This document shows, piece by piece, positions 35,432 to 63,701 of a DNA stretch of 64,000 bases. A model generated the notes under the pieces. That model did not search any database. It was not told the origin of the DNA and was given only the letters and a program-made list of their open reading frames with translations. Source of the DNA: Patagioenas fasciata (lineage: Eukaryota; Chordata; Aves; Columbiformes; Columbidae). The position numbers and the translations under genes were made by a program. How positions within the stretch are numbered: the stretch's first letter is position 1; each line of letters starts with the position of its first letter. The stretch spans positions 29,538,367-29,602,366 of the forward strand of contig NC_092525.1 of the NCBI RefSeq assembly GCF_037038585.1, given 5' to 3'.

Positions 35432-45014
<9,583 letters not shown>

Positions 45015-50244: not shown

Positions 50245-50345
50245 AGATCACAGAATCACACAATGTTAGGGATTGGAAGTGACCTCAAAAGATGATCTAG
50301 TCCAATCCCCCTGCCGGAGCAAGAACACCTAGATGAGGTTACACA
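50245..50345 (-). mobile_element. Short CR1 LINE 3'-end fragment
   Basis: About 100 bases match the extreme 3' end of another CR1 subfamily in reverse complement: ATCACAGAATCACACAATGT, GATTGGAAGTGACCTCAAAA, GATCTAGTCCAATCCCCCTG and AGCAAGAACACCTAGATGAG. It is close to the consensus as I remember it, so it is younger or better preserved than the other two copies. It is strongly 5'-truncated. Confidence 0.85.
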
Positions 50346-55810: not shown

Positions 55811-55816
55811 TTTATT
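55811..55816 (-). terminator. Candidate polyadenylation signal of the micro-exon gene
   Basis: A minus-strand AATAAA (TTTATT on +) lies about 735 bases after the stop codon of the terminal exon at 56549-56647. It is the best candidate I found between that stop and the SLC35A3 CpG island. Confidence 0.35.
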
Positions 55817-56548: not shown

Positions 56549-56647
56549 TCATATAGACCATTTTGATGTAGCAGCAGAGAGAGCAAAGGCACTCAGAACA
56601 CTGAATAACAGCAGGAGTTGGGGAGTTGAGTGTTTTCCAGCAGAGCT
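56549..56647 (-). CDS. Terminal exon of the micro-exon gene: GPI-anchor-like hydrophobic tail
   Basis: This exon follows a strong polypyrimidine acceptor (T12 then AATAG) and encodes 32 residues plus TGA. It begins with the small residues SSAG, then a short polar spacer KHSTPQ, then a hydrophobic run starting LLLLFSVLSAFALS, and closes KWSI. Small omega-site residues, a spacer and a C-terminal hydrophobic run are the layout of a GPI-attachment signal. The Lys four residues from the end is less typical, so a short transmembrane anchor remains possible. Confidence 0.65.
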   Translation of the reverse strand, partial: SSAGKHSTPQLLLLFSVLSAFALSAATSKWSI

Positions 56648-59600
56648 CTATTAAAAAAAAAAAAGAGCAATTGGATTAACCCAATTCAAAGTAGTTCTAT
56701 TTACTATTATAAAAACATAGTAAGTTTCAGGGATATATTTTCCTATTAGCCCCTTCTGTTATGTAAACACTTGTGATGTTACAAAGATCACGTGCCACAT
56801 CTACAGTGCACATAAATCAACAGGTGTTCAGTTTTCACGTGCCAGGCAGGATCAAAAGTATAAAGCACTTATGTGATCCCACTTTTTCTCATTTCTGTTG
56901 ATACTATTCTCATTTATTATATTGCACATGTATTCTCAAACATTTGTTCAGATACAGGAAATGTGACAGATACCTCACAGTATAAACAACACTTTGTTTT
57001 CTACGGTATATATATGAAGAAACCACTAGAAACTACAAAGAAAAAGTGCTTACCACTTGGCTGTTGCCTGAGTAAGGTGAATTCTGAAAATAAACAAACA
57101 AATAAATCTAGAAGTGTTCCCACCCAATGGTTTTAAACACAGTTTTGCCTGTGATCAACAAAATTTTAGTACCCTAACTCACAGCATTGTGTTAAGTTGT
57201 TCAAGAGGAAAGCAGCTTTGCATAGATAGTTTTAGTTACACACTCTATTCTCATATCACATCTGCAAATTTCAGCTAAAATTGATGAAAGGGCAAAAGTC
57301 TATTTTCCTCTCATTCCATTATCATATTCCATACAGTTAAAAATTGATAAGTACTGAAGACTAAAAAAAGAGAGAAGTGCAAAACCTGGTAACTTGCCAG
57401 TGAAAAACTCAATCTAGCTAATTAAAAAAAAGTGAAGGATTAACTGAGCAGAGCCCATGAAAATCTACATAGAAAACAGTAATTTAAAAATAGAAGACAG
57501 AAAAGTGTAACAAGGCCACTAACTGGAATGTGAAGCAAGACATATTCAGATTTAAAATATCACTGATATTGAAATAGCTTTCTGAGGCTGAGGCCATATT
57601 TTTCACAGCAGTTTCTTTAAATACGCTCTAATACAAATGGAACTAATACAGAATGTTCTCTTCAGACTAAATAATCCTGAAAATGCTCTACCAACCACCC
57701 AGGTTCTTTGTTTACTAAGAAAAGAAAATTAAAACACTGTGACAAAAGTATTCTCATTGGTTTCCCAGAATAAGTGCTTCCTGAGGTAGACAAGCCCTAT
57801 AAAATAATAATAAACCATTTATTTTTATTATGTGAGACTCCTAGTGAATTGTGTCCAAAGATAACACAGCCGTCTTGAAAATGCCCTAGATATTGGTAGT
57901 TTTGGCACTGACTTTGATTTTACCTTTTTCCTTGCACATTTTCCCCCTGTTTTAATTGAATACTCTCAAGTCAGCACAGTGATGTTCTTCACAGCGATGT
58001 ATCATTGACTGAACTACAAAGTTTGAAACTGAAACAGTTATCCTGATATTTAAATACATCATTCTTAATAGAATTATCCAAGCATGTTCAAAACTTTGCT
58101 ATGGGAGGAATGAATGCTGCCTCATCCTGAAGTTCAAGTCTGAACAAAATATTCCAATTTGTATTGGTCAGCTTTCTCAGAAATTTATCATTGTAACATA
58201 ATTTTAAATTTTACCCTTGTTATTGTTACCTATTTTTAAAAAAACAATATCCACATTTCTAACTTGATTGTGGGATAATGAAAGCAGAATACCCTTACTG
58301 ACTTTCCCTGATCACCGCCTCCTGAGGAATACAAGCTCTGAAAAAATATACCCATTTTCAACTCTAAACCTCTTTGTGCCTCAGTATATTCTTGTTATCT
58401 GGAATGAAGGACCACAGGAGAATGAACACTATTTTGTGTCTAGTCATCCAAAAATCCCAGGGAAATCTTATCTGAAATACAGATACTTAAAATCTTTCTG
58501 TTACAAGTATTCCTTTGAACGATGTATTAGTCAGAGAATTCAGTTCCAAGTTCTAAAGAAGAAAGAGGTGTTTTGTAGTTACGATATGTTTAATATATAG
58601 AAGGGAAAAAATAATAAGGTTTTTTTTTTTTTTTTACTTACTGGTTTACCCTGTTTACTGCCTCCAGAGGGACTTGAGCCCTGCAAGAAGTGAATCACAC
58701 ATCTATTAACTGAATGGAAAAGATCTTCTATCACTGCCCTGAGACAATTTGCCTAACTTAGGACAAACATATTTGGATATTGTTTGAACAAAGTGTAACT
58801 GGAGTACCCAAAGCTTAAGCTATCTACAGCACAGCAAAATAACAGCAATTTGTTATTCTGAATCAAGAAAGTGGTGTTACAAAATACAGTATAGCAATTA
58901 TGGTATGTTGAAAGGAACATTTTTACACAGAGTGGTGATTCACTGTAACCAAATCCTTTATTCAGCTTGCTGAAATGACTTGAGTTAATACTACCTCAAC
59001 TATATAAGGTCAGTAAAATAACCAAATGAATGTATTTTTCAGCATCAAGTAACTGACCTGAACTAGACAGTACAGGGAAAGAGTGGGGAGTGATGGGAGG
59101 AGAAAGAAAATACACCCACCTGCCCACCATACTGGCTGCTTACTGAGGGAGAAGAGCCCTATTAAAAAAAAAGAAAAAAAAAGACAAAACACATGAAACA
59201 TAAGTGTTTAAGTGTTGGAAGAATAACAAACATAACAGAAAGACTTTTTGGCAGGAGGTGTCAGTAGGAATCTGGAATATATATTAATCCAAAAAGACAC
59301 AGTGAAAGATGTCTGACTTAATTCCTTCAAGTTCCTTAACAGCTGAAATTAGTAAATTTGGCAAACACTCAGAAAACACCTGCTATGACTATTCTCTGAC
59401 AAATATCGGGATATAAAGTGTCTTTAAATACGGCTCTGTTCAAGGGAAGAAAAAAACCTACATTATTTGTGATTTTCTGCTAGGTAAAACATGTTCAGAA
59501 AGCATCATATGTATTTTGTAAGAGCATCCTTCTTCTTTCAAGTAAGTAATTTGGGAAAAATTTGGTTTGCAGCTTTTACAATTCCTCTCCATGCTACGAG

Positions 59601-62600
59601 AAACAATCTTCTTAATAGTGTGATACTGAACTCTAATGCTTGCCAACAGAGTAAAAAGAAATTAAAGTATTTTTTAGTATAGCAGAGTGAACAGAGTAAT
59701 ACTAATGAAAAATGTGTTCTGCCTTCTTATTAGATAGCCATCTGTTAACTATTTGGGCTACTAAGATTTCTTGATCAGTGAAAAACTACTAAGTCTACAA
59801 AATATACTCAGGGAGCTGCTTACAGTAAGAGACTCAAATTGCAGGTGAAGATGAGGAAAGTAGTATTACTGTGGGTAACACAGCAGAATTTATATTTTCA
59901 AAGCAATATCTATTGCTATATTTTGTACCAAATTTCCAAGTATTTAATCTAAATAAATGCAAAAAGAAATTCAATATGATGACTAAAAAAACCACAGAAA
60001 ACAGATTTTGAACTGATGTGGTAGCAATGTGAAACTGAAACATAAAAATGGTTAAATAAAATAATCACTTGAGATAAGAGGCATTCTGAGGTAATACAAC
60101 TAAAATTATTATTTGTACATCTGTCTTTAAACTGAAGTTTGTTCATGCTACTCCATTTCAGTTACTGAGAAGTGTTCCCTTTTTCACATTGAGAGTAAAA
60201 TGACTCTGAAAAACTGAGGAAAATGATGCTGAAAACCTGACTGGCAGTATATGCACTGCATCATATTTTTCATTTAGTAAACAGCACATAGGAAGAAGAT
60301 CTAGAAAACAAAGAAAAGGTGCTTGCCTGTCCACCATATGGACTGCTTCCAGAATATGATGAGCTCTGTAAAAAGAATGTGAAAATTTTGTAACTAATTT
60401 TTTAAAATACTGTCTGGCATCAAAAAAACCTGGACCAAATCTAAACCATATTCACAATACTGAGTAGCTGGAAGAACTTTACACAGATTTTAATGCAGTG
60501 GCCAATTTGCCCTGATTACTAGTATAGTAATTCTGTTTGGTAGATTAAACAAGTAAAGGATTTAATTTCAATTCATCCTTATTCCTTCAGATTGTTTACT
60601 TGCAAAGAGAAGCTGATAATTTACATGTTGTTTCAGCACTTCTGATTCTCAGAAGTGGCATGTATACCATGAGTGCTGTACTTCTGGCATACGGGTTTTG
60701 CTTGATTTCATAATCTGAGGAAGTGTAGTAGTCATCTAAGCAATTTTGACAATACTGAGACAACAGAAAACTGAACTCCCCCTCAAAAGTAAATTAGCTT
60801 AATTTCAGCAAAATAGTGCTTTGTTTTGTTCTCTTTTTAAAGTCTTTACAAAAGCATAGGGACTATACTAATTAGACAGAAAATTGGAAATAGCCTTAAC
60901 TTTTTAAATTGATTGTTCTCTTCCTACTTGGAAGCATTTTGGGCCAAGATTTTTGATCTAAGTTTCACTAGTTCAAATCATACTGTTAATAACCATCATA
61001 AGAGCAGCACTGTAACACTCATGTGTAAAACCCAGCAGATAAACTATGAGATATTTGGGAAACAGATTCTTAGGAAAGTTCCAGGCCTCTCTTACAAACC
61101 AAAATAAATTAAATGCTTTGAAGCAGTTGTTTGTATCTGGATATTTTACAGAATTAGCTGCAGTCTTCCTTTAATACTCTGTATTGGAGAACGCTACTAC
61201 TTCTTTTAATCCAGGGTGGGGAAAATGCATTTTATTTTATATGTGTTTCTTTGAAAATAGAAATGTATCTGGGTAGCTAGTTTTGAATATAACAATATCA
61301 CAGTTGCAAGTCACTTAATGTTTTTGTCTTAAGCAGGTTCAAAAGTTCTCATTTTAGCACAATGTGAAAAAAACTTCCATCATACATATAAATTCACAGA
61401 TAGAATTATTTCAAGAAATGTAGTTTGGGAATTTTGTAGTATGTGTAAATAGTATGAAAAATATACAAAGAATACTTACTGAACTTCCACCGGGGCACAC
61501 ACATCCACTCTGCATAAAACACAACCAAACTTATTTTCCTGAGTCTATGACTCAAAGAGGCCTCTGAATCAGTAAACTAAGCTCACATTCTGCTACTGCA
61601 AGAATATGGACTATAAAATTCTGCTCACAGACTCACCAAGCTCCATCTAAAAAGTAGTTTCTTTCTGTCTCCACTGTCCTTTCAGGGTAGCTGTGCACTT
61701 ATGATCATTTTTTTGAATATAGCCTTCTGATTTCGCATTTAAAACTTAAAAACCTTACCCACAAAAAGGATGAGTAAAAAATTCTGACCAGTACTACAGA
61801 ATGTTTGGGAATATACGTAGTATTCTTTCATGCTACAAATGTTACAGAAAACACTAAAGATGACTTCCAGTGGAGGCCTGCTGGGTGATTTCTGCTCCAA
61901 TAAAACTAACTGAAATGTGGCCAGGGCTTCACCATTCAGTGTTTCACTTTCCACATTCAATCTGCATGCAATGCGTAAGAAAAATGTTCAGCGCCAAAGC
62001 AGGTTGAGAACCTCCCATACAAGTGCCATTCAGACAGTTACTACTGGCTGCTCTGGCCTGCGGGATGTCTGAATGACACAGAAAAAAGAAAATAATGTGT
62101 TGCTGGGGCTTTAGGCAAGAAGGACAGTGGTGAAGGAAAACAGTTCTTCTGAAGGAGTGACTCAAAGTGAATTGTGAGTGCCTGACAGCAGCAGACTGAA
62201 CAGTGTGCAGAAGTAAAGCATACCTGTCCACCAGACTGGCTGCCTCTTGAAGGAGAGCCCTGGAAAAAAAGGAAAAACACATTATTTCTGTGTTATGGTG
62301 TAACATTCTCATTTGTTCTCTGTAGTTCTTAGGCTTTCAAATTGCTTCTGTTTAAACATAACAAAAATGGGCTTCTTGAACCCTGGTCTGTGTAAGGAAG
62401 CATTCGCATGCTGTCACACAGATCCCTGTATCATTTGTTCATACCATGACCTGACATACCAGACAGACCCCTACTTACCAACCCTCACTCAGTTTAGCGT
62501 AAAGCTAGTCTTCTCTTAGAATGTTCCTTTTTTAAAAAAATGCAGTTCAGTTTTCCTAATGAACTGTGTTCTAAAACTGCAAACACTATGAAAGTAGAAG

Positions 62601-63701
62601 TTTTACCTGGCTGCTTCCTGAAAAAGCTATACCCTAAAGAAATGAGAAAGTATTTGTATTTGTTGTGCGTTCTTTAACTTATGATGTCACAGGAAAAAAA
62701 AAAAACAACACAACACTTTTACTTGTCTTCCATTGACTTAAATGTCACAAGAATGTGAACAGTTCCTTTATAACCATACTGAAATCTATTAGCCTTTACA
62801 ATGGCTACTGTTTAAATTGAAGAAAGTTTAAATCCAAGTCAGTATAGGCAGGTGCGATTGTGTGCTCAGGGCAACCTCCTGTGCTTTACATTCCTGAGTG
62901 GGCAGAAGCAGCAGCAGGTCATATATTCATCTATTCTGCCTAAACACTGTTTTGCTATAAGCCACTCCTTTATAAAATATTCTGTTTTTCACAAACCAGA
63001 AAAAGAGACAAGGGTGAACATTAGAAAAAACAACCCATAAATAGAAAAACAATTCTCACCTGTCCTCCATAATGGCTGCCACCGGAGTAAGGTGAACCCT
63101 AAAGAAAAGGTACCAATTATTTCTCTATCAAAAAGCTTCTTTAAAGGTTTTTTTTAAAGAAAAACTATTTTATTTCTCTGTTGTACAATGGAAGATAAAC
63201 ACACAATCTGTTCCTTTATGTGTTCTATGCAAATTAGAGATGGTTTGTACCATGAATCTTCCATAATACTAATGATGAGTTAGTAGCATTATATACCTAA
63301 TTTTAGGAGAATGTATTTGGACTAGAAATCTCTTTCTCTTCTAACTCCCTCTCCATAAATCTGACCATAAATGTTTTCAGAGGCCAAGGACGAGTTTGTT
63401 GGGAATTTCACTCCATATTAAGGGCTATACCACTAGACAGCACTAGGAACCCTATCCATCACCTTTCATTTCCCAGGAGCATGGAACAGCTCTCAACAAC
63501 TCCTGCCCCGTTCCCCTGTTCCCCTCCTGAGAGACACTGCTCCTCTGATACCAACTTTGATATCACATTTTGCTGAAGGAAGCGAGGTATTCTGGAGGCT
63601 GAGGTAGAGAAGGAATGCAATCTGGGTTTTTGGATAAGGACTATACAGGAAGAGTTTCTCACCTGTCCTCCATACTGGCTGCTTCCTGAAGAAGGTGAAC
63701 C
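56549..63701 (-). CDS. Unrecognised micro-exon gene encoding Gly/Ser/Tyr/Gln 13-residue repeats (5' end outside window)
   Basis: I do not recognise this gene. Reading the minus strand, a series of small exons lies between clear AG and GT/GC splice sites, all phase 0: 63663-63701 GSPSSGSSQYGGQ; 63061-63099 GSPYSGGSHYGGQ; 62607-62633 GIAFSGSSQ; 62224-62259 GSPSRGSQSGGQ; 61480-61509 SGCVCPGGSS; 60327-60365 SSSYSGSSPYGGQ; 59120-59158 GSSPSVSSQYGGQ; 58642-58680 GSSPSGGSKQGKP; 58299-58337 SLYSSGGGDQGKS; 57054-57083 NSPYSGNSQV; 56549-56647 terminal exon with TGA. A further copy at 57758-57796 lacks a normal donor. Seven of the ten intact repeat exons are exactly 39 bp. The repeats are rich in G, S, Y and Q, with no N-glycosylation sequon but many Ser. 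Repeated exon duplication explains the layout. The tail suggests membrane anchoring. The signal peptide and start would lie right of 64000. Coding status is inferred from conserved frame and splice sites. Confidence 0.7.
57758..57796 (-). pseudogene. Decayed 39-bp repeat exon copy (donor GT replaced by AT)
   Basis: After an ATAG acceptor the minus strand encodes GLSTSGSTYSGKP in frame, closely like the GSSPSGGSKQGKP exon at 58642-58680. The bases after it are ATGAGA where the sibling exon has GTAAGT and others have GTGAGA. The first donor base therefore appears changed from G to A, and the exon is probably skipped. It could also be an assembly error or a polymorphism. Confidence 0.55.
61480..61509 (-). 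CDS. Divergent cysteine-containing micro-exon (SGCVCPGGSS)
   Basis: This 30-bp exon has a good acceptor (TTTTATGCAG) and a perfect GTAAGT donor, and it is phase 0 like its neighbours. It is the only repeat exon in the window with cysteines (CVC). Its sequence departs from the 13-residue consensus, keeping only GGSS. It is either a diverged duplicate or a separate module allowing disulphide or lipid linkage. It is less certain than the 39-bp exons. Confidence 0.45.

Follow-up and report, generated by a model that had tools for sequence, protein, structure and literature searches.

Duplicated phase-0 micro-exons beside SLC35A3 in Patagioenas fasciata probably encode the stalk of a secreted Reeler protein

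What is encoded by the series of very small open exons that lies beside SLC35A3 in the genome of Patagioenas fasciata? The question arises from a stretch of 64,000 nucleotides (nt), here called the window, in which a first-pass annotation had proposed a micro-exon gene with duplicated 39-nt repeat exons. Our answer, to which we assign a probability of roughly three in four, is that these exons would form the 3' part of a sauropsid gene whose product is a secreted, probably glycosylphosphatidylinositol (GPI)-anchored Reeler protein with a Ser/Gly/Gln/Tyr stalk that has been enlarged in birds via exon duplication.

Read from the sequence, the micro-exon gene occupies 63701–56549 on the minus strand and comprises 11 internal phase-0 exons (E1–E11) and a 99-nt terminal exon (E12), with an open reading frame kept in all 12. 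The internal exons measure 39, 39, 27, 36, 30, 39, 39, 39, 39, 39 and 30 nt, seven of them being exactly 39 nt, and the 11 introns span 304–1168 nt. The initial description, at least ten phase-0 exons of 27–39 bp (seven of 39) with introns of about 0.3–1.2 kb, is borne out by these measurements. It had also credited every exon with its own splice sites, and this stands for most of the series: nine of the 11 internal exons have a GT donor and E6 a GC donor (CAG/gcaagc), but E10 has AT (CCA/atgaga) and the acceptor of E9 is weak. Splice sites were scored with a weight matrix built on textbook frequencies.

Chance open intervals as the origin of the exons are ruled out by three observations. Across all 64 kb, with a seed of 14 and a minimum length of 60 nt, one direct-repeat family was returned, the micro-exon cassette in six copies, and no inverted repeat. 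In leave-one-out comparisons with 13-residue profiles, five of the seven 39-nt exons ranked first among all six-frame 13-mers, and E9 and E10 ranked third, outscored by a plus-strand 13-mer at 44994 and by a segment that overlaps E4. Eight of the 15 AG..GT micro-intervals on both strands fall within the 7.1-kb exon stretch; these intervals were required to be 24–45 nt long, a multiple of three, open and above score cut-offs that were set once the exons were known, and E6, E9 and E10 fail them. Among the seven 39-mers, mean pairwise identity is 0.65 over the first 20 nt and 0.59 over the next 20 nt, falling to background values of 0.19–0.33 in the flanks at distances above about 20 nt from the exons. 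Resemblance is retained in the exon and its splice sites and lost in the introns, and because the introns around the copies are at background identity, the duplications look old. An ungapped sliding scan of 64000–56500 outside the known exons found no further or decayed exons, the best segment being 56% identical and all containing stops; its probes were the window's own eight exons of at least 36 nt.

The protein search of birds and reptiles that had been suggested located predicted relatives in a sparrow, a swan and turtles. In a second search, which used an artificial tripled query to admit longer proteins (4916 candidates, E up to 10), nine proteins matched, two of them strongly: P0121 of Passer domesticus (E 5e-26) and P0122 of Cygnus olor (E 3e-24). 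The remaining seven come from turtles, and all of them share the E12-type C-terminal tail. A control search with SLC35A3 returned 2185 proteins and had many bird entries among the 120 matches listed, indicating that birds are well covered in the searched database. E1–E11 are collinear with residues 138–296 of Passer P0121, where the comparison ended, with 7–12 identities per exon. The collinearity score was 489, whereas 60 shuffled exon orders reached at most 435; the global alignment scored 459, and 200 residue shuffles at most 220. These matching units in predicted bird proteins support both the real coding use and the growth by exon duplication that had been claimed for the series. On sequence grounds the bird and turtle relatives are very probably orthologues of the micro-exon gene, although the YGGQ motif occurs in none of the seven turtle models and the turtle stalk looks shorter or different.

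Following the series along the minus strand, E1 (63663..63701, 39 nt, GSPSSGSSQYGGQ, donor GTGAGA) is identical to Passer residues 138–150 at 12 of 13 positions, and E2 (63060..63098, 39 nt, GSPYSGGSHYGGQ, donor GTGAGA) to residues 151–163 at 11 of 13. E3 (62607..62633, 27 nt, GIAFSGSSQ; Passer 177–185, 8/9) is a shortened copy with its GT donor at an internal CAG, and its sparrow counterpart continues as GIASSGSSQYSGQ. E4 (62224..62259, 36 nt, GSPSRGSQSGGQ; Passer 190–201, 7/12) has one codon fewer than the full unit. After the cysteine-bearing E5 (61480..61509, 30 nt, SGCVCPGGSS; Passer 202–211, GGCVCPGGGS, 8/10) come five exons of 39 nt: E6 (60327..60365, SSSYSGSSPYGGQ, GC donor GCAAGC; Passer 223–235, 8/13), E7 (59120..59158, GSSPSVSSQYGGQ; Passer 236–248, 10/13), E8 (58642..58680, GSSPSGGSKQGKP; Passer 249–261, 9/13), E9 (58299..58337, SLYSSGGGDQGKS, weak acceptor; Passer 262–274, 7/13) and E10 (57758..57796, GLSTSGSTYSGKP, AT donor; Passer 275–287, 11/13). 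E11 (57054..57083, 30 nt, NSPYSGNSQV, donor GTAAGC; Passer 288–296, 7/10, the comparison ending at residue 296) resembles, like E3, a copy cut back at an internal CAG or CAA where a new donor had arisen. Read as 27 nt, E11 would have a poor donor, and since the extra V of the 30-nt form is kept by both Passer P0121 and Cygnus P0122, the longer form is favoured. Six of the 11 units end in Gln (E1, E2, E3, E4, E6 and E7), and E8–E10 contain GKP or GKS; the sparrow and swan proteins likewise have three GKP each.

Two of these exons deserve separate mention. The E5 unit (CVCPGG) stands amid Ser/Gly units and has look-alikes in the sparrow (GGCVCPGG, GGCDCSGA) and the swan (GGCICPDG); its cysteines may form disulphides along the stalk. 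At the donor of E10 (57756–57757, minus strand), AT follows an otherwise intact exon whose unit is found in the sparrow and swan proteins. This AT may reflect exon loss confined to the lineage, a polymorphism or a mistake in the assembly, and with such a donor E10 is probably skipped in this genome.

What kind of protein carries these units is indicated by the relatives, seven of which have an N-terminal Reeler domain (PF02014); the two that do not, Passer P0121 and turtle P0123, are both N-terminally partial in appearance. In the full-looking relatives a hydrophobic leader resembling a signal peptide (judged by eye) is followed by the Reeler domain, with the tail at the end, an arrangement from which the product should be exported and anchored. 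Pfam gave no match in the window part of the micro-exon gene, and we infer that in this genome the Reeler domain and signal peptide are encoded to the right of the window, beyond 64000. Against the PDB the window part gave one weak match, to RpfC (E 0.097), of no value, and turtle P0124 had a weak sequence match to spondin-1 structures (E 0.003). The AlphaFold model of P0124 has strands in the Reeler region and a helix at 480–492, with little predicted structure between them.

These domains bear directly on the resemblance to FUS-type proteins that the first-pass annotation had drawn, which holds for composition and fails for location. An intracellular low-complexity protein would account for units rich in Ser, Gly, Tyr and Gln, but with a Reeler domain in seven of nine relatives and a membrane tail at the end of eight, such a protein is ruled out as far as the relatives' domains can decide, and we find it scarcely conceivable. 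FUS, EWS and TAF15 are characterized by an RNA-recognition motif, whereas Pfam (E up to 0.01) detected no RNA-binding domain in any of the nine relatives.

E12 (56549..56647, minus strand, 99 nt including the stop) begins with SSAGK; after the small residues SSAG come a short polar spacer, a mostly hydrophobic run of 16 residues (maximum hydropathy 2.37 as a 15-residue average) and the polar end TSKWSI. It is identical to the Cygnus C-terminus at 28 of 32 positions and to that of turtle P0124 at 23 of 32, and a tail of the form SSAGK...LLLLFSVLSAF...KW.I is common to eight of the nine relatives. The membrane-anchor exon proposed earlier therefore has its match in predicted bird and turtle proteins. 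Recognised by eye and hydropathy, the order of a C-terminal small-residue site, spacer and hydrophobic tail makes E12 a probable GPI-attachment signal. Alternatively, the tail encoded by the same gene could be a plain single-pass transmembrane helix that leaves six residues in the cytosol, giving a type I membrane protein that is not GPI-linked. The polar, lysine-containing TSKWSI after the hydrophobic run fits such a helix, and the KW.I end retained in eight of nine relatives would be unusual for a cleaved GPI signal; against the helix, the SSAG residues and short polar spacer precede the hydrophobic run, and nothing like a cytosolic domain follows. We consider the helix the less probable of the two, yet a possibility to be taken seriously. 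A candidate poly(A) signal (AATAAA, 55811..55816, minus strand) lies 732 nt past the stop, and is proposed from its position alone.

Both genes are on the minus strand, with SLC35A3 to the left and the micro-exon gene upstream of it; the sparrow model agrees with the window in order and strand, confirming the neighbourhood first reported. AGL, which the first-pass annotation had also named, falls beyond the window. Compared as proteins, four SLC35A3 exon peptides are identical at 210 of 211 residues to those of both Cochlearius (boat-billed heron) and Buteo, at 205 to Passer and at 201 to Gallus. The stretch holding the start-codon coding exon (44625..44909, minus strand; 3' end of the exon not fixed) has its ATG at 44891, and Pfam recognises Nuc_sug_transp on its open reading frame. 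The acceptor adjoining 44909 is phase 0 (KKERQE-M), so that read-through from E11 into SLC35A3 stays in frame.

Such a joint exists in Passer P0121, which is annotated as SLC35A3 isoform X1: about 297 N-terminal residues from the unrelated micro-exon gene are joined in frame to the transporter, and the name is misleading. From this model, and from the corresponding frame being open in the window, one might take the micro-exons to be mainly alternative 5' coding exons of SLC35A3. However, the Cygnus model and all seven turtle models end in an E12-type tail and have no transporter domain by Pfam, a CpG-rich stretch at 54.5–55.5 kb suggests that SLC35A3 has its own promoter, and the Passer model has neither a signal-peptide-like leader nor a Reeler domain at its start, as expected of a partial read-through model. 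We regard SLC35A3 membership of the micro-exons as highly improbable and the fusion as most likely a by-product of transcription beyond E12. A second fused model, P0129 of Mauremys mutica, joins a rhodopsin-type receptor (7tm_1) to the relative of the micro-exon gene, which suggests that in turtles a receptor gene lies just upstream of this gene. Elsewhere in the window, a short remnant at 50248–50307 on the minus strand resembles the 3' end of a CR1 element, and Rfam gave no match in the window.

In the proposed secreted Reeler protein, each phase-0 micro-exon encodes one Ser/Gly/Gln/Tyr-rich unit and the last exon supplies the hydrophobic tail, so that a long flexible stalk would keep a GPI-tethered Reeler head at a distance from the cell surface. 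Gln-rich units would face outward and Lys-bearing units would lie near the membrane; from this pattern, transglutaminase cross-linking of the stalk is a guess. The whole could act as a surface coat whose Reeler head binds ligands, perhaps microbial, which is the least certain part of the scheme. A review reports that Noduler, a silkmoth protein with a Reeler domain, binds components of microbial walls (PMC10321396). With every unit exon in phase 0-0, gain or skipping of one would alter the stalk by 9–13 residues with no frameshift, leaving stalk length free to vary among species and transcripts. The claim of a freely variable repeat number is in keeping with these phases, and the swan label 'isoform X29' hints at many splice models; variation among transcripts is suggested by that label only. 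A bolder extension is that a dozen or more interchangeable phase-0 exons yield graded surface stalks, bird cell types setting stalk length and cross-linking of a GPI-tethered, possibly microbe-binding coat by combinatorial skipping, with exon number turning over quickly among bird lineages; we offer it tentatively and are inclined to doubt it. Expression, function and anchor chemistry are all inferred.

Several observations weigh against our interpretation. The first protein search, which admitted only proteins of about 90–287 residues, gave no match among 1077 candidates (E up to 10), and the turtle matches of the second (E 0.14–6.5) are not significant by themselves. Every relative comes from automated gene prediction, two of the models (P0121 and P0129) being fusions with neighbouring genes, and the AlphaFold model of P0124 is of low confidence, with a mean predicted local distance difference test (pLDDT) score of 31.9. 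The terminal Gln of the units may partly stem from the splice consensus CAG/GT. The idea of microbial binding leans on one distant insect protein, Noduler, whose part in nodules is doubted in the same review (PMC10321396).

The remaining difficulties concern the exons themselves and could mean that the gene is decaying, a former surface protein shedding exons in this lineage. The donor of E10 is lost, being neither GT nor GC; 29% of the AGs in the window score as well as the acceptor of E9; E3 is shortened; and, by eye, two sparrow units within residues 138–296 have no counterpart in the window. The ratio of nonsynonymous to synonymous differences (pN/pS) is 1.02 in the K-type exons (E8–E10), which thus appear unconstrained, and 0.57 (P 0.12) in all seven 39-mers pooled. 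Q-type exons (E1, E2, E6 and E7), by contrast, are constrained, with a pN/pS of 0.24 against a median of 0.67 in a simple neutral simulation (P 0.001), the division into Q-type and K-type having been chosen post hoc with the data already known. All 12 exons are open, ten of the 11 internal donors are GT (nine) or GC (one), and the dropping of one phase 0-0 exon leaves the frame intact. Decay is in our judgement unlikely, and an intact gene for a stalked Reeler protein remains the preferred explanation.

The locus is a clear example from nature of how a protein stalk grows through duplicated 39-nt phase-0 exons, and the intermediate stages can be seen next to one another: intact copies, copies shortened by whole codons, a GC donor and a lost donor. 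Its bird and turtle relatives are obscured by composition-based names, namely filaggrin-2-like isoform X29 (Cygnus olor), hornerin-like (Gopherus evgoodei) and sericin 1-like (Mauremys reevesii), others being uncharacterized (LOC127056010, LOC128842461) and one fused to SLC35A3 in the sparrow record. These names are misleading or empty; the predicted relatives in sparrow, swan and turtles suggest a gene already on record, real but unstudied. A correct gene name would clean up the records and permit tests of very small exon recognition and of repeat-number evolution. NCBIfam gave no match for the two relatives tested, and no paper describing the gene or locus was recognised in the open-licence literature, where most subscription journals are missing. 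A study of Korean native chickens names both FRRS1 and SLC35A3, each a single time (PMC11222857).

Among known systems, the nearest by domain are the Reeler proteins (FRRS1, spondin-1 and insect Noduler), which share PF02014 with seven of the nine relatives. The relatives differ from them in having a long repeat stalk and a membrane tail in place of DOMON, cytochrome b561, spondin or thrombospondin domains; none of these, nor an S100 domain, was found in any of the nine (Pfam, E up to 0.01). Ferric-chelate reductase 1 (FRRS1) is defined by DOMON and cytochrome b561 domains following the Reeler domain, and their absence from these searches rules out membership. Filaggrin and hornerin, of the S100-fused type, have an N-terminal S100/EF-hand domain, and P0122 and P0127 have none, which rules out this assignment as well. 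Elastin, collagens and the PEVK region of titin are vertebrate genes enlarged by in-frame exon duplication; the bird gene resembles them in the way its repetitive region was lengthened and differs in sequence and in its shorter exons. Micro-exon genes of schistosomes have many very short exons, long introns and secreted products (PMC10526429). By description, the bird gene is like them in its tiny exons between long introns and in its predicted secreted protein; it differs in belonging to another organism and in that its units can be seen to be copies of a single 39-nt exon.

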